DNA of 64,000 nt, from the NCBI RefSeq assembly GCF_001553115.1, contig NZ_KQ960172.1:148111-212110 (forward strand), read 5' to 3'. A program made the position numbers and the translations under genes. The notes under the pieces were generated by a model. It was not told the DNA's origin. It saw nothing but the letters and a program-made list of their open reading frames with translations, and did no database searches. Below, in pieces: positions 17,550 through 64,000 of the stretch. Positions within the stretch are counted from its first letter, which is position 1. Each line of letters begins with the position of its first letter. Source of the DNA: Aedoeadaptatus coxii. GTDB taxonomy: Bacteria; Bacillota; Clostridia; Tissierellales; Peptoniphilaceae.

Positions 17550-20423
17550 ATGAATAAATCTTATAAATTAATCGACAAGAGAAACATTCCTGAACTTCAC
17601 GGGGACGTTTCTTTTTTAAAACACATTAAAACCGGCGCCGAGCTTTTGCTGCTGGACAACAAAAATCACAACAAGACCTTTGCCATCGGTTTTAAAACGC
17701 CGCCGGAAGATTCGACGGGCGTCGCCCATATTGTGGAGCACTCCACGCTTTCGGGCTCGAGGAAATACAAAACCAAGGAACCTTTTATGGACATGGTGGC
17801 GAGCAGTGTGCAAACTTTTTTAAACGCCATGACCTATCCCGACAAGACGCTCTACCCCATTAGCTCCCGAAACGACAAAGATTTTCGCCAGCTTATGGAC
17901 GTTTATTTAGACGCGGTATTCTATCCTGAAATGCGTGAAAATAAAAAAATCTTTTATCAGGAAGGTTGGCATCCCGAAATCGAAGAGGATCGACTCATTG
18001 CAAACGGCGTGGTCTTTAACGAAATGAAGGGCGTCTATTCCGATCCCGCCAATCGCGTCTCGGATATGGTGCGTGAAAAACTCCACCCCTCCGGAACCTA
18101 CTCCCACGATTCCGGCGGCAATCCCGACAACATACCCGACCTTACCTTCGAGAATTTTTTAAATTTCCACAAACGGTATTATCACCCGTCCAACAGTTAC
18201 ATTTTTCTCGCAGGCGACATGGATTTCGAGGAGCGCTTGGCTTATTTAGACGAGGCCTATCTCTCCGCCTTCGACGCCGTCGATCCCCAATCGGACATCG
18301 TCGGCCACAGTATGTATGACAGCCCCAAGGAATTTAGCGGCACTTATGATCTTTCGGAAGATGAAGATCCCGACGGCAAATCTTATTTCGCCCTTTCCTT
18401 TTTCTCGAAAACCGATCCAACACCTGAGGATTTACTTCTTCGAAGTTTCTTCCAGGAACTTCTCGTGGAAAGCGAAAACGGGCTCATTAAAAAAAGACTT
18501 CGCGATGCGGCCATCGGCGAAGACGTGTATTCGGAACTTTCCACTTCCAACACCTTGGACTTTACGATTTACTGTTACCACGCAAAAACGGAGCGTTACG
18601 ACGAGTTTAAGCGCATCGTCATGGAAACATTGGAAGATGTGGCCAATAAAGGCATCGACGAAGATGTTTTACAGGCGACTCTCGAAAAGTTTGAATTTAC
18701 CGTCCGTCGCGGCGGCGGCGCCCACGCCGATTTAATTCAATACATCGGCGCGTTAAATACTTGGCTCTACGGGCAAAATCCTTTAGATGGCATGGAGCTT
18801 TCCCCTAAACTGGATGCCCTACGGGAAAAAATCGGCACGGACTTTTTCCAAAAAGCGGTAAAGGAATACTTCCTCGACGTTCCCCATCGCGTCGCCATGC
18901 GCATCGACCCCGAAATCGGGAAGGAAAAGCGGATCGAGGAAAAACGCAGAGAAAAGCAACGAGCAGCTTATGCGTCTCTCTCCGCTTCGGAACGGGAAGA
19001 GATTATGGCTCTGTCTCAAGACTTAAAGGCCTATCAGGAAGCTCCCGATTCAGAAGAAGCCAAGGCTACCATTCCCAAGCTGGAACTTTCCGATCTTTCG
19101 AAAAAGATTACCTCGATTCCGAGAAAAGTGACGACCCTTTCGGACATTATCGTGACCACCAATCCCTTAAATACCAACGGCATTCTTTATACCAATTGGG
19201 CATTTAACATGAAGCATTTGAACCTGGACGAGTTGGCCTACGCTTCCATTCTTTCCGATGTATTGGGTAAAATCGCCACGGAGCATTACTCGGAAGCGGA
19301 ACTTGAAACGGAAACATTCCTCTCCGGCGGCGGCTTTACTTTCGATACGCCGGTAGAGCAAATGGACGACGGCTACGTGCCCTACTTCTTTATTTCCACC
19401 GGCGCCCTTCCCCGTCAACAGGCGCGTGGCTACGCCGTCTTGGAAGAAATGCTTTCCAAGAGCAAGCTCCACAACGAAGCGCGCATTAAAACTATTTTGG
19501 AAACGATGAAGGCGGATATGGCGGCGTCCTTCCTGCAATCGGGACACTCCATCGTTTCCAATCGCGTCCGCGTTCGCTACAGCGAGGCCGCTTATGTGAA
19601 CGACGCTTTAAATGGCTTGGACTTTTATTTCTTCGTCTGCGATCTCATCGAAAAAGGAGATTATAAATCTGTCGCCGACAAATTGGAAAAAGTGGCGAAA
19701 AAAATCTTTACCGCTTCCCGCTTGACGGCCAATCTCATTGCCGATGAGGAGGATATTCTCATGGCGGAAGCCGCCCTCGCCGATCATCTGCTCCACTTCA
19801 AAAAAGATTCCTACGACGATGCTGTCATTTCCTTCGAGCCGAAGGATGTCAACGAAGCCTTTACGCTGAATTCCATGGTAAATTATGTTTCTAAAGGCGG
19901 CAATCTGAAGGAAACGGGCTATGCCTATGACGGCAAGCTCGTCGTCCTCGCCAATGTGTTGAGCAATTTATTCCTCCACAAAGAAATTCGCGCCAAAGGC
20001 GGCGCCTACGGCGCGGGCATTCGCATAACGCGCTTTGGCGACGTGGCGACTTATTCCTACCGGGATCCTCAAGTGGAAAAAACCGTGGACGTTTACGATC
20101 ATATGGGCGATTTCTTAGAAAGCCTCTCCATGAGCGATCGCGATCTTACGGATATGATCATCGGCGTTATGAACGTCTTCGATCCCCACTTGGCGCCTTC
20201 CGCCTACGGCATTTTAGACTTTAAACGCTTCTTAAACGGAACGACGGCAGAAGATCTGGAAACGCGAAAGGCGGAAGCCATGGCCACTACCGTCGACGAT
20301 CTTCGCGGCTTTAGCGATTTGATTCGAAAGATTATGGCACAAGACCATATTGTCGCCATCGGCGACGGCGAGCGATTAAAAGCTACCGAACTCTTCGACG
20401 TCTATCGCTCCCTTAAACAATAA
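17550..20423 (+). CDS. M16C-family zinc metallopeptidase (PreP/insulinase-like)
   Basis: The 957-residue protein has the inverted zinc motif HxxEH as HIVEH (H60, E63, H64) and a distal Glu in NEMKG (E158), spaced as in presequence-protease (PreP) enzymes. The rest matches the two-lobed M16C plan with a long linker of charged helices near residues 450-510. Such enzymes cut peptides enclosed in their chamber. No signal peptide is seen, so it is probably cytoplasmic and degrades short peptides, fitting an amino-acid-fermenting lifestyle (inference). The ATG at 17550 follows AGGAGTGA by five bases. It stands alone between its own promoter and terminator and is one of only two plus-strand genes here. 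Confidence 0.93.
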   Translation: MNKSYKLIDKRNIPELHGDVSFLKHIKTGAELLLLDNKNHNKTFAIGFKTPPEDSTGVAHIVEHSTLSGSRKYKTKEPFMDMVASSVQTFLNAMTYPDKTLYPISSRNDKDFRQLMDVYLDAVFYPEMRENKKIFYQEGWHPEIEEDRLIANGVVFNEMKGVYSDPANRVSDMVREKLHPSGTYSHDSGGNPDNIPDLTFENFLNFHKRYYHPSNSYIFLAGDMDFEERLAYLDEAYLSAFDAVDPQSDIVGHSMYDSPKEFSGTYDLSEDEDPDGKSYFALSFFSKTDPTPEDLLLRSFFQELLVESENGLIKKRLRDAAIGEDVYSELSTSNTLDFTIYCYHAKTERYDEFKRIVMETLEDVANKGIDEDVLQATLEKFEFTVRRGGGAHADLIQYIGALNTWLYGQNPLDGMELSPKLDALREKIGTDFFQKAVKEYFLDVPHRVAMRIDPEIGKEKRIEEKRREKQRAAYASLSASEREEIMALSQDLKAYQEAPDSEEAKATIPKLELSDLSKKITSIPRKVTTLSDIIVTTNPLNTNGILYTNWAFNMKHLNLDELAYASILSDVLGKIATEHYSEAELETETFLSGGGFTFDTPVEQMDDGYVPYFFISTGALPRQQARGYAVLEEMLSKSKLHNEARIKTILETMKADMAASFLQSGHSIVSNRVRVRYSEAAYVNDALNGLDFYFFVCDLIEKGDYKSVADKLEKVAKKIFTASRLTANLIADEEDILMAEAALADHLLHFKKDSYDDAVISFEPKDVNEAFTLNSMVNYVSKGGNLKETGYAYDGKLVVLANVLSNLFLHKEIRAKGGAYGAGIRITRFGDVATYSYRDPQVEKTVDVYDHMGDFLESLSMSDRDLTDMIIGVMNVFDPHLAPSAYGILDFKRFLNGTTAEDLETRKAEAMATTVDDLRGFSDLIRKIMAQDHIVAIGDGERLKATELFDVYRSLKQ

Positions 20424-59072: not shown

Positions 59073-59282
59073 TTATTTAATCAATTCTCTCAATGCGTTA
59101 AATTCATCGATACTTAATGTAATGCCCTTGGTCATACGGGAATGATCTTCATTCCAGCCACGAATATCGAATTTCGCCGGAGCCCCGTTATAAGACACGC
59201 GGTTTAATTCCTTCGTCCAGCCGTTATTCGGCGAGCCAAGGACACCTAAATGTTCTACAATTTCAAATGAAAAATCAGCCAT
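59073..59282 (-). CDS. YdbC-like small protein (PC4/p15 single-stranded-DNA-binding fold)
   Basis: The 69-residue protein (FSFEIVEHLGVLGSPNNGWTKELNRVSYNGAPAKFDIRGWNEDHSRMTKGITLSIDEFNALREL, in part) fits the YdbC family, a bacterial relative of the eukaryotic PC4 coactivator; homologues bind single-stranded nucleic acid. Recognition is from pattern (W-x-K-E-L-N ... KFDIR-W ... GITL) and not certain. AGGAGGCATC precedes the ATG, which lies just after the copper ATPase terminator. Confidence 0.75.
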   Translation of the reverse strand: MADFSFEIVEHLGVLGSPNNGWTKELNRVSYNGAPAKFDIRGWNEDHSRMTKGITLSIDEFNALRELIK

Positions 59283-59298
59283 GATGCCTCCTAATTGA

Positions 59299-59321
59299 AA
59301 AAAGCGCCTTAGGCGCTTTTT
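59299..59321 (-). terminator. Rho-independent terminator after copA
   Basis: AAAAAGCGCCT and AGGCGCTTTTT form a near-perfect 11-base-pair stem with T-runs on both sides; directly after the copA stop. The downstream ydbC-like/ldh genes have no evident promoter, so partial read-through is possible. Confidence 0.9.
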
Positions 59322-59528
59322 CTATGCCACCGATACGACCGTATAGCCGGCATCTTCTACCGCTTTTTTAAGCACATCTTCCGAAAGGTTTGCGCCTTCC
59401 ACTTTTGCTTCGCCCGGTTCCAACGTTACCGTGGCTTTTACGCCGTCCAAAGCATTTAAGGCTTTTTCAACGCGGCCGACGCAGTGTTGGCAGCTCATGC
59501 CTTCGATGGTTAATGTTTTATGTTCCAT
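59322..59528 (-). CDS. copZ: Possible free CopZ copper chaperone from an internal start in copA
   Basis: Within the copA frame, AAGGAGG followed eight bases later by ATG (59528) opens a 68-residue product that begins MEHKTLTIEGMSCQHC and is a complete CopZ-type heavy-metal-associated domain. The ribosome binding site is as strong as that of copA itself. This suggests the same mRNA gives the fusion protein and a free chaperone. Known CopZ proteins have this size and carry Cu(I) to CopA. Production of the short form is inferred. Confidence 0.55.
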   Translation of the reverse strand: MEHKTLTIEGMSCQHCVGRVEKALNALDGVKATVTLEPGEAKVEGANLSEDVLKKAVEDAGYTVVSVA

Positions 59529-61916
59529 AATCTGTTCCTCCTTTATACTTTCTTTGTCTTTATACCCCTTTGCGTGGGGATAATCAAGTTTATTTTCATC
59601 TCTTAAAGAAATTAATTTCGGTTCCACGGAAATCTCGTCGCTTTCTGTGCGATCCGCCTCTTCCAACGTCACGAGATTTAAGCGGAGTGCGTTTGTTACG
59701 ACGAAAACCGAACTGAAACTCATGGCGAAGGCGGCGATCATGGGGCTAAGTGTTAAGCCGAAGGACGGGTAAAATACCCCCGCCGCTACGGGAATACAAA
59801 TCACATTGTAAAAGAAGGCCCAGAATAAATTCTGCTTGATGTTGCGAATGGTAGCTTCGGAAAGTTCCACGCCGCTCACCACATCTAAGAGATCGCTGTG
59901 CATCAACACCACGTCGGCACTTTCCATGGCGATATCCGTTCCGGCGCCGATGGCGATGCCCACATCACTTCTCGCAAGGGCAGGAGCGTCGTTAATGCCG
60001 TCGCCCACCATGGCGACCTTTCCCTCTTCCTGATATTTCCGCACAAAGGCCTCTTTTTCATCGGGCAGGACGCCGGCGTGAATTTTATCGATGGCGAGAT
60101 CTTTCCCGATCACTTCCGCCGTCTTTTCATTGTCTCCTGTGAGCATAATAATACGCTTGCCCATGGCCTTTAATTTTTCCAGGGCCTCTTTGGAATTTTT
60201 CTTCACCACATCTTTTGCGGCGATAAAGCCGAAAAGTTCTTTTTCCGTGGCAAAAAAGAGGGGCGTCTTTCCTTCGTTGAGCGTGCGTTGAAGTTCGTCC
60301 TCCACACCCTCTAATGAGTGGCCCAGTTCCTCCATTAGGCGAATATTGCCGCCGTAAAAGACTTCGCCGTCGATGGTCGCCTTCAGCCCTCTACCGGGGA
60401 GAGCTTCGAAATCTCTTACATCTTCGGCCACTTTCTCGCCATATTTTCCTTCAAAGCTGCGAATAATGCCTTCCGCCAAGGGATGTTCCGACGGTTTTTC
60501 CAGGGCATATGCCAATTCAAAAAGGGATTCCGCCCCTCCCTTTATCGCCACTACATCGGTGACAAAGGGCTTACCATTGGTAATGGTGCCCGTCTTATCT
60601 AAAATCAGCGTGTCCGCTTCGTGGAGCAGCTCTAAACTTTCCGCACTCTTGTAGAGCACACCTGCCTTGGCGCCTTTCCCCGTACCTACCATAATGGCGA
60701 CAGGGGTGGCGAGGCCGAGGGCGCAGGGGCAACTGATGACGAGAACGGAAATGGCCAGACGCAGGGCAAATTCTTTATCTGCGCCGAGGAGGAGCCAGAC
60801 TGCCGCCGTCACGAGGGCGATGGCGATGACGATGGGCACAAAGACCCCCGCTACACGATCGGCGATTTTCGAAATGGGTGCCTTCGTCGCGTTGGCATCT
60901 TCCACGAGTTCGATGATTTTCGAAATGGTCGTGTCGTCGCCTACACGAGTGGCTTCCATGATCAGGCGGCCCTGCCTGTTGGTCGTCGCCGCCATCACCT
61001 CGTCCCCCGGCCCTTTTTCCACGGGAATGGACTCGCCGCTAAGGGCGGATTCGTCGATGGCACTTAAACCTTCGATAACTCTTCCGTCTACGGGCACATT
61101 TTCTCCGGGACGGAGGACGATTTTATCGCCGATGACGATATCTTCCACCGCCACGACCATTTCCTCGCCGCCGCGAATCACCGTAGCTTCCGACGGCGTC
61201 AAATCCATGAGGGAGCGAATGGCGTCGGATGTGCGGTGTTTGGCACGGGCTTCCAACCATTTACCGAAGTCGATTAAAACTACGATCATGGCAGCCGATT
61301 CAAAATAAAGTTCGTGTCCGTAGTGAAGCACGCGCTCCATGTCCCCGTGGCCGAAGCCGTAGGAAAGTTGGAAGATGACGATAATGCCGTAAACGTAAGC
61401 GGCGCCGGAACCGATGGCGATTAAGGCGTCCATATTCGGGTGGCGCTTCGCCAGGGATTTAAAACCGTTAATGTAATAGTGGCGATTTAAAAATAAGATG
61501 GCCGTCGCCAACATAAATTGCAGAAGAGCAAAGCTCATTAAATTTTCCGTTCCTGCTAAAAAACGCGGAACGGGTAGCCCCATCATGGGCCCCATGGCGA
61601 TGTAGAAAAGGGGAAGAAGCAAGAGAGCCGAAGCGAGAAGCCGCTTCTTTTTTTCTGCGAGATCGACTAAAAAGGGATCTTCCGCCGGCTCCTCTTTTTT
61701 CTTTCCCTCTGTTCTCTCGGGAAATGCCTTATAACCGGCGTCGTCTACCGCTTTTAAAATTGCTTGTTCTACGCCGTCGTCGGCGACTACTTTCATGGAA
61801 TTGGTCAGAAGATTCACCGCCACGGATTCCACGCCTTCCACTTTAGAAACTGCGCGCTCTACGGCGGCGGAACAAGCGGAGCACGTCATGCCCTCCACTC
61901 TAAATTTTTGTTCCAT
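59322..61916 (-). CDS. copA: Copper-translocating P-type ATPase with C-terminally fused CopZ-like domain
   Basis: The 864-residue P1B-type ATPase exports Cu(I). An N-terminal metal-binding domain has GMTCSAC (C12, C15). Then come the membrane helices, the actuator loop GESIPVEKG, the transmembrane metal site CPC (SCPCALGLATP), the phosphorylation site DKTGT, the HP motif in SEHPLAEGI, and GDGINDAPA. After the last helices (~residue 745) a charged linker leads into a second, C-terminal metal-binding domain (GMSCQHC, C809 and C812), which is unusual. The ATG at 61916 follows AAGGAGG; an earlier in-frame ATG (61946) precedes it. No CopY or CsoR gene is in the window. Confidence 0.95.
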   Translation of the reverse strand: MEQKFRVEGMTCSACSAAVERAVSKVEGVESVAVNLLTNSMKVVADDGVEQAILKAVDDAGYKAFPERTEGKKKEEPAEDPFLVDLAEKKKRLLASALLLLPLFYIAMGPMMGLPVPRFLAGTENLMSFALLQFMLATAILFLNRHYYINGFKSLAKRHPNMDALIAIGSGAAYVYGIIVIFQLSYGFGHGDMERVLHYGHELYFESAAMIVVLIDFGKWLEARAKHRTSDAIRSLMDLTPSEATVIRGGEEMVVAVEDIVIGDKIVLRPGENVPVDGRVIEGLSAIDESALSGESIPVEKGPGDEVMAATTNRQGRLIMEATRVGDDTTISKIIELVEDANATKAPISKIADRVAGVFVPIVIAIALVTAAVWLLLGADKEFALRLAISVLVISCPCALGLATPVAIMVGTGKGAKAGVLYKSAESLELLHEADTLILDKTGTITNGKPFVTDVVAIKGGAESLFELAYALEKPSEHPLAEGIIRSFEGKYGEKVAEDVRDFEALPGRGLKATIDGEVFYGGNIRLMEELGHSLEGVEDELQRTLNEGKTPLFFATEKELFGFIAAKDVVKKNSKEALEKLKAMGKRIIMLTGDNEKTAEVIGKDLAIDKIHAGVLPDEKEAFVRKYQEEGKVAMVGDGINDAPALARSDVGIAIGAGTDIAMESADVVLMHSDLLDVVSGVELSEATIRNIKQNLFWAFFYNVICIPVAAGVFYPSFGLTLSPMIAAFAMSFSSVFVVTNALRLNLVTLEEADRTESDEISVEPKLISLRDENKLDYPHAKGYKDKESIKEEQIMEHKTLTIEGMSCQHCVGRVEKALNALDGVKATVTLEPGEAKVEGANLSEDVLKKAVEDAGYTVVSVA

Positions 61917-61964
61917 AAAACCTCCTTCTTTCGTTAGATTATTCATTCTTCATATGATTTAATC

Positions 61965-64000
61965 CTACCAATCTACTCGGTCATTGTCAACGCTACCGGC
62001 GTTTGCGAGGAGTTTTTCAATTTCCCTTTCCTCATCCGCCGTTATGTCGATTTTATGGTAATCTCCGTCTGCGGAAGTCCAGAGATAGAGATCGGGCATC
62101 TCCCCTTTAATGGCTTCGTAAGCTTTTCCGTAAAGGCCGATTTGCAAGCGGTATTGATCGATGAGATGAGAGCCGATGCCTCGCTCCCCGGTTTTAAAGT
62201 CGATAATGGCCACCCGCCCGTCCAGGATGCGAAGCTGATCGTAAAATCCTTCCAAGGTTACCTTTCCGAAATTGGCAGAGAACGGAACTTCCGTGCCGAG
62301 TATTTCCGCCTCTTCCAGCGTTTTATCGTAGCGATCCATGGCGGCCTTTAACCGCTCCCCGTTAACGCCGAGTGATTCGCCGCGCTGTAAAAGTCGCGCC
62401 TTTAAATCCTCGTCCGGAGCTGTGGCGCGCTGGGCGTAATGGTGAAAGAGCGAACCGAAGGCCAGGTAATTTTCTCCGCTGCCCTTGCCCTGGGCGAGAA
62501 TTTCCTCTTCCTGTTTGCGCAAAAGACCGCTGGCGGATACCACTTTCCGCTTTTCCAAGTGAATGGGCTTTCGCTCCTCTTGAGGTACGGCGGGATCATC
62601 TTTCGTCGCAGTCGATGGTATCTCATGGACATCCTCTTCATCAAATTCGATACCATCCAAATAAGATAAAAGGCCCGATGAACTTTCCTTGGATTTGATG
62701 AGGTAGAGATAATTTTCCGCCCGCGTCATGGCGACGTAAAGCAGACGACGAATTTCGTCGCGATTTTCCGCTTTTTGAATCTCCCGATTCAAATTGTAAA
62801 CCGCGGACGCGTCGGGTCTGTGAATGCCGACGCCGTATTCCTCCGAGTAATTAAAAAGCCCGCCTTCCCCTCGCTCCTTAGCGAAGAGATGGCCCATATA
62901 AACTCTTTCGTACTCCAACCCTTTGGCGCCGTGCATGGTGGAAATGTCGATGTCCGCTTCGCCGCCGAACACCGCTTCTCCCACTTTTTCACGCTCCGAA
63001 TCTTTCTTGATCTTATCTAAAAACCCTTCGATGGTATGGCCCTCGTGTTCGTAAGATTCCGCAAGGGATAAAAATACGTCTACATTGGCGACTCCCTGTT
63101 CGCCTCTTTTGCGAAATACACTGTCATAATAGCCGCTCCAATGAATGAGTTCCTTTAAAAAAACATAGGGTGAGCAAAGGGATTCCCGCTCTTTTAAAAA
63201 TTCCTCGAAACGCGAACGGCGATCGTGTGCATCGTCCCCGAGGGGCAGTCCCTTTTCCGAGCGATAAAGATCTTCTCGAGACCAGCCTACGAAAGGCGAA
63301 CGCAAAGCGGCGAGGGAAAGATTTTCCTCGGCCTGAGCTTCTAAAGCGATGACGAGATCCCGCACCTCTCGCGCGTCGTAAAAACCGTCGGAACTCCTGT
63401 TGCGATAGCGAATCCCCTGCTCGCGAAACACTTCTTCGTAAACACTCATCCATTTTTTTCGCCAAAGGAGAAGGGCGCGGGAAGAGGCAGGGTGCTTGCG
63501 AATGTCCTCGGCGATCCAAAGGGCTTCCCTACGAATGGAATCTTCGTCGTCTTCCCCTTCTCCTACGTCGATGCCGCGAAATTCCCAGTCCCCTTCCCCG
63601 TGGCCGATAACCTCATCGTCGCCGAAAAGATCATCGAAGTAATCTTTTATTAAGGCCACAAGATCGGCGTGGGAACGGTAGTTGTTCACGAGGGACATGG
63701 ACGTCGCCCCGTCTTTTACCATGTCCTCGCCGAAAGATTCGCTCGTCAAACGATCGGCGCCGCGAAAACCGTAAATCGATTGTTTTTTGTCGCCGACGAT
63801 AAAGAGGGTACTCTCGCCTTTCAACGCTTTCAGCAATCGAATTTGCAAAGGATTCGTATCCTGAAATTCATCTACGAGCAAATGATCATAGGCCGGCGCA
63901 GCTACACCGGATTCTAAGAGAGCCGTGGCTTTTTCCAAAAGATCCTGAAAATCCACCGCGCCTTTTTCCCTCTTCGCCTTGCGGTACGATGCGTCTAAAT
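61965..64000 (-). CDS. addA: AddA-type ATP-dependent helicase/nuclease (partial, N-terminal part outside window)
   Basis: The frame stays open to base 64000, leaving 678 codons of the C-terminal part; the usual AddA is ~1150-1250 residues. Superfamily 1 motifs visible are II (LLVDEFQDTNPLQ), III (FIVGDKKQSIYGFRGAD), IV (NNYRSHADLV), V (STMHGAKGLEYERVY) and VI (YVAMTRAENYLYLI). A RecB-type nuclease domain follows with FGSLFHHYAQ, GFYDQLRIL, VAIIDFKTG (Asp and Lys of the active site) and DQYRLQIGLYGKAY. With AddB it processes double-strand breaks for RecA. AddB is not in the window; a standalone UvrD-nuclease fusion remains possible. The gene lies just upstream of copA with no terminator between. 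Confidence 0.85.
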   Translation of the reverse strand, partial: LDASYRKAKREKGAVDFQDLLEKATALLESGVAAPAYDHLLVDEFQDTNPLQIRLLKALKGESTLFIVGDKKQSIYGFRGADRLTSESFGEDMVKDGATSMSLVNNYRSHADLVALIKDYFDDLFGDDEVIGHGEGDWEFRGIDVGEGEDDEDSIRREALWIAEDIRKHPASSRALLLWRKKWMSVYEEVFREQGIRYRNRSSDGFYDAREVRDLVIALEAQAEENLSLAALRSPFVGWSREDLYRSEKGLPLGDDAHDRRSRFEEFLKERESLCSPYVFLKELIHWSGYYDSVFRKRGEQGVANVDVFLSLAESYEHEGHTIEGFLDKIKKDSEREKVGEAVFGGEADIDISTMHGAKGLEYERVYMGHLFAKERGEGGLFNYSEEYGVGIHRPDASAVYNLNREIQKAENRDEIRRLLYVAMTRAENYLYLIKSKESSSGLLSYLDGIEFDEEDVHEIPSTATKDDPAVPQEERKPIHLEKRKVVSASGLLRKQEEEILAQGKGSGENYLAFGSLFHHYAQRATAPDEDLKARLLQRGESLGVNGERLKAAMDRYDKTLEEAEILGTEVPFSANFGKVTLEGFYDQLRILDGRVAIIDFKTGERGIGSHLIDQYRLQIGLYGKAYEAIKGEMPDLYLWTSADGDYHKIDITADEEREIEKLLANAGSVDNDRVDW

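Follow-up and report, generated by a model that had tools for sequence, protein, structure and literature searches.

Does the copA gene of Aedoeadaptatus coxii specify one protein or two? In the window analysed here, a stretch of 64,000 nucleotides whose first letter is position 1, this gene runs into a C-terminal CopZ-type domain. An earlier note, made from the letters alone, had proposed that an SD and an ATG ahead of this domain allow the gene to make a free chaperone besides the tethered one, or else that they record a recent loss of the stop codon between copA and copZ. Judging from comparative sequence analysis, we consider it highly likely that conserved internal initiation in copA yields a free ~7 kDa CopZ-type chaperone besides the full pump.

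Anatomy of copA and its nested reading frame

The longest mechanical copA ORF spans 61946–59322 on the minus strand, where all features described in this section also lie, and encodes 874 residues without an internal stop. It contains, in order, an N-terminal HMA domain (ORF residues 15–73; 61728–61904, PF00403), a P1B ATPase core with actuator and phosphorylation domains (residues 249–660; 59967–61202, PF00122 and PF00702), and a second HMA domain at residues ~810–870. The uninterrupted frame with its two HMA domains bears out the earlier reading of a copA that continues stop-free into a CopZ-type domain. The ORF scores 603 bits against TIGR01511 (cut-off 397), which places it in CopA, and its translation contains VISCPCALG and LDKTGTIT, that is, both the CPC metal site and the DKTGT phosphorylation motif, which we take to be CopA hallmarks.

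Translation of the pump probably starts at ATG 61916 rather than at 61946, since a promoter-like site at 61990–61962 (TTGACA-17-TAGGAT with TG, a match in a simple consensus scan that is no proof of function) lies too near the latter. At 61916 the sequence reads AAGGAGG-TTTT-ATG, placing an SD (AAGGAGG, 61921–61927) 4 nt ahead of the start. The CDS from this start (59322–61916) is drawn from the ORF list, its translation, profile searches and direct reading. Past the ATPase core, the linker (59529–59678) is charged and poorly alike among relatives except for the codons that encode the internal SD. The end of copA carries a terminator-like hairpin with a T run (59300–59323), read by eye and unlisted in the consensus scan, and directly 3′ of the gene lies a 69-residue protein with a PC4 (p15 coactivator-like) domain (59073–59282, PF02229).

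The internal SD, AAAGGAGG (59537–59544), stands 8 nt (AACAGATT) ahead of an ATG (59526–59528) that is in frame with copA, forms the first codon of the CopZ-type domain and is kept in relatives; the AAGGAGG-8 bases-ATG arrangement of the earlier note is thus read directly at 59544–59526. From ATG 59528 to TAG, 68 codons encode MEHKTLTIEGMSCQHC...VVSVA (nested CDS, 59322–59528). The nested domain scores 53.8 bits against PF00403 (cut-off 24.8), carries the GMxCxxC motif of HMA domains, and aligns nearly end to end with the solved CopZ structures 1k0v and 2qif (for 1k0v, query 1–67 to chain 1–70, E 2.5e-12). We call the product CopZ-type only, because the 68-residue piece stays below the NCBIfam CopZ cut-offs (68.6 vs 85 for NF047957; 60.1 vs 91 for NF033795).

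Mechanical gene calling gave 38 genes in the window, with 402 internal in-frame ATGs. Of these, ATG 59528 pairs most strongly with the anti-SD (−11.7 kcal/mol), and only two of the 402 reach −9. For comparison, the best SD close to the start of each of the 38 genes pairs strongly, with a median of −8.85. The anti-SD string used here is an assumed one, because the 3′ end of the organism's own 16S was not found: a search of the assembly with one exact pattern (GGATCACCTCCTTTCT) gave no match, and this 3′ end is either absent from the assembly or unlike the typed pattern.

The anatomy suggests how two products would arise. Ribosomes that begin at the upstream start would make the full copper-exporting ATPase, with one HMA domain at its N terminus and one tethered by the linker at its C terminus. 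Initiation at the internal SD-ATG as well would give a second, ~7 kDa product that consists only of the last domain, a free Cu(I) chaperone of the CopZ type.

Spread of the fused gene and persistence of the internal start

The fused frame is found in all eight genus genomes compared, the window's own and seven others whose CopA proteins share 71–94% identity with the window's. A sequencing error as the origin of the fusion is ruled out by the same open frame in G002 (94% identity) and in six other members of the genus. The comparison with relatives that the earlier note had called for likewise finds no stop codon common to them all between copA and copZ, the genus being fused in 8/8. Fused copA also occurs in rows named Lachnospiraceae, Oscillospiraceae, Christensenellaceae, Selenomonadaceae, Veillonellaceae, Acidaminococcaceae and Erysipelotrichaceae, and in single metagenome bins of Spirochaetaceae and Synergistaceae. 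With all eight genus genomes and distant families fused, a recent stop loss is unsupported for this lineage.

Unfused copA is usual in the order's other families (20 unfused order genomes in a table count by eye, including one copA cut by a contig end). A short HMA frame adjoins copA in 18 of these 20 genomes, lies elsewhere in one and is absent from one, and the fusion likely arose from such an adjacent split copA-copZ pair. On the core tree (195 rows, unrooted), the fused and unfused states need eight changes, three of them forced by starred branches; fusion or fission therefore occurred more than once.

We compared 147 fused loci in two sets. Set 1 comprises 99 loci after removal of the duplicates L037 and L038, which share contigs with L014 and L016. 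Set 2 comprises the 48 fused genes among 87 loci, the remainder being split (33) or without a C-terminal HMA domain (6). Of the 87, 20 belong to the family and order; the other 67 stem from an evenly spread sample of the class, whose 147 genomes gave a match in 133 cases, and part of these matches, best first, was read. Part of set 1 was fetched with the pattern KEEQIMEH, which spans the feature, and set 2 by whole-genome protein searches. A selection bias from this pattern is ruled out: the peptide occurs in only one of the 147 loci, the window's own (L001), and set 2 is pattern-free. Both sets are enriched for fused genes, through full-length match ranking and hand-picked regions, and their counts give no fused share; the loci are, moreover, related rows, and the counts are not of independent events. 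One locus, L036, is included as fused despite a frame interrupted upstream of its C-terminal part (294-codon frame), which is either a broken gene or an assembly fault.

An ATG stands at the start of the CopZ-type domain in 143 of the 147 loci. At 125 of these ATGs the pairing is −8 kcal/mol or stronger; 134 attain −6, leaving nine weaker than that, and 142 pass a lenient cut of −4.5. The pooled profile of the 143 starts reads AAGGAGG at −15 to −9. Three further loci combine a strong SD with another start codon, TTG in L029 and L090 and GTG in L169 (pairing −9.0, −11.1 and −11.9); TTG and GTG are start codons that are read as Leu or Val when elongated. A comparable internal start is missing from just two loci. 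L082 has no ATG there, and its GTG with weak pairing (−5.5), 16 codons ahead of the GMMC motif, was not counted as comparable; L193 has the ATG without an SD (−1.7). The earlier proposal that one gene may supply both a tethered and a free chaperone draws strong support from this near-universal start and SD, the latter exceeding what peptide and codon choice would give and being encoded in more than one register.

Some loci vary the arrangement. L027 and L031 carry tandem C-terminal HMA domains, of which the first lacks a Met close to its beginning and only the last has the SD-ATG; this suggests that an extra HMA domain was inserted upstream of the nested start. In L109, the start region upstream of the C-terminal HMA domain is repeated (MEKTMEKTMEKTMK), giving several consecutive in-frame ATGs.

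A separate copZ-like frame is present in the fetched flanks (median ~1.5 kb per side) of six of the 147 fused loci, and both loci that lack a comparable start are among the six. The extra gene lies directly downstream of copA in L082, with its own SD, and directly upstream in L193. The chance of both exceptions falling among the six is 15/10731 (~0.0014) if relatedness is ignored. The other four, L075, L081, L105 and L169, have the nested start as well as a flanking copZ-like frame, which speaks against a strict either/or rule; in these four, a separate HMA-domain frame of 123–143 residues sits just upstream of the fused copA.

In the window's own genome, three HMA domains exceed the Pfam cut-off: both of those in the copA ORF and a third in a 688-residue P-type ATPase frame. 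Within this assembly (99% complete), no stand-alone gene thus encodes a free HMA protein, whereas the internal start could supply one and would be the genome's sole source of free HMA chaperone. Six of the eight genus genomes are without stand-alone HMA proteins, and short HMA frames occur elsewhere in G007 and G002. An absence of stand-alone HMA proteins from fused genomes is seen in the window's genome and in these six of eight, but it is no rule for the class: other short HMA frames are common in the fused genomes of the class, where copA is not always the sole source. The sole-source argument is therefore a local one.

These comparisons bear on the possibility that copA lost its stop codon beside an adjacent copZ and that the old copZ SD and ATG were simply left over unused, a history we regard as very improbable. 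It has in its favour that split copA-copZ pairs are usual in the order's other families, as in the 18 of 20 unfused genomes above. However, a leftover signal would decay in old fusions, yet all but two of the 147 loci retain a comparable start. The fusion is shared by all eight genus genomes and by families far apart on the trees, and the SD and start persist despite differing linkers, with constraint visible in the synonymous and register tests described below.

Constraint on the SD as an RNA signal

Pairing of −8 is reached by 88 of 96 loci in set 1 and 37 of 47 in set 2, compared with 1.6% (n = 20,768) and 1.4% (n = 9,778), respectively, of window-matched interior sites in the same genes. 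A cut of −4.5 alone tells little, since 20% of ATG-holding interior windows (6,156/30,546) also pass it.

Synonymous shuffles that hold the peptide fixed and use each gene's own codon usage (500 for set 1, 1000 for set 2) reveal an excess of SD-forming codons. In set 1, AGGAG is observed in 81 of 96 loci against a shuffled mean of 24.3 and maximum of 34, and the summed pairing of −991 against −584 (sd 27) is matched by none of the 500 shuffles. Set 2 gives the same picture, with AGGAG in 34 of 47 loci (shuffled mean 8.6, maximum 16) and a summed pairing of −420 against −243 (sd 18), matched by none of the 1000. Single loci are seldom significant (p < 0.05 in 17 of 96 in set 1, median 0.19), and the case therefore rests on the whole set.

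The SD is encoded in different codon registers: 109 loci use codons of the Lys-Glu-Glu type, 29 use the Lys-Gly-Glu or Gly-Gly type, and two use neither. On the FastTree core tree, one main register has given way to the other at least 16 times. Together with the excess in codon choice, the two registers argue that the RNA motif is kept and not the peptide. A peptide-level cause, i.e., a conserved K-E-E linker, is ruled out by the synonymous shuffles and the SDs in the Gly register. Moreover, the SD lies 10–15 nt from the start (set 1), whereas the linker between core end and start measures 9–106 codons across the two sets, the longest linkers including some with an extra HMA domain. A nearly steady SD-start distance beside a variable linker is explained by an RNA signal linked to the start codon; neither a peptide in the linker nor a pause set by the membrane part accounts for it.

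Slowing of ribosomes has been suggested for SD-like stretches, and the one in copA might act as a programmed pause that aids insertion of the last membrane helices or C-terminal folding, with no initiation involved. Its position, a few tens of codons past the last membrane segment, would suit such a role. We nevertheless find this account highly improbable, since the distance to the core end varies as widely as just described while that to the start stays steady. Furthermore, a start-capable codon is present in nearly all loci, including those three with TTG or GTG in place of ATG, and the two exceptions, L082 and L193, own a separate copZ-like gene. That free CopZ is instead released by proteolysis in the linker or translated from an internal transcript, the SD-ATG being secondary, is hard to credit: the linker is long and charged and may be open to proteases, but clipping would not require a conserved SD and ATG, and a simple consensus scan of 59250–62100 gives a single minus-strand promoter-like site, which lies upstream of copA.

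We therefore return to internal initiation. An in-frame SD and start inside an ORF, conserved beyond coding need, is the mark of internal-initiation genes, and copA bears it. The computation establishes the anatomy of the gene, the age of the fusion, and a constraint that acts on SD and start codon as signals in the RNA; from these we infer the making of the free protein, its amount, its copper binding and its delivery to CopA.

Known two-product genes and the probable reach of the nested chaperone

The chaperone of E. coli is an N-terminal HMA domain released by a frameshift to an early stop. Programmed frameshifting at E. coli copA, or CopA(Z), was reportedly the subject of work by Meydan and by Drees in 2017. 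PMC10187127 describes E. coli copA as giving pump and chaperone by frameshifting, the chaperone elsewhere being typically a separate gene. The system predicted here resembles CopA(Z) in that a single copA gene would yield a soluble HMA chaperone in addition to the copper pump. It differs in both domain and signal, a C-terminal HMA domain and in-frame internal initiation here against an N-terminal HMA domain and a frameshift in E. coli; in fact, the internal start precedes the C-terminal HMA domain, and the gene falls outside the E. coli type, in which the chaperone is the first N-terminal one. The passages of PMC7558416 consulted do not mention an internal start.

Separate copA and copZ genes, as in 33 of the 87 loci from which set 2 was taken, encode the same pair of proteins, and in these split loci copZ is preceded by an SD, but a stop codon ends copA first and no tethered form is made. 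The system of PDB 3fry is also alike in having a P1B ATPase with a C-terminal HMA domain. In Cas11b and LysIME-EF1, an internal start yields a C-terminal domain as a separate protein; unlike copA, neither concerns a transporter or a metallochaperone. Such internal in-frame starts are described by PMC11899642 for Cas11b and by PMC7098653 for the two-component endolysin LysIME-EF1. For a nested copZ start, the titles and abstract openings surveyed, a partial coverage of the literature, contained no description.

In many gut-type bacteria, two products very probably come from one copA gene, namely a pump that carries its chaperone tethered and the chaperone in free form. More broadly, we think it likely that much of the anaerobic Bacillota (Clostridia, Negativicutes, Erysipelotrichaceae) uses a nested-start chaperone. 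It would have been kept over deep time because it provides the tethered and the free form in a ratio that a single internal SD sets, and it would be a one-gene solution that arose independently of that of E. coli, as a second one. If so, many gut and mucosal anaerobes make two proteins from a gene that is taken to encode one, and in two lineages the pump gene would have come to contain a chaperone, at opposite ends and with different signals. This parallel would make it testable why pump and chaperone share one message.

SD strength, register switches and start-codon replacement would also form a simple comparative test for further nested proteins. In the window, the second-strongest internal SD-ATG, GAGGAGGATATTCTCATG (−11.5), lies at 19761 on the plus strand within ORF 17550–20423, whose 957-residue product presumably resembles an M16C-type peptidase; this occurrence may be due to chance.
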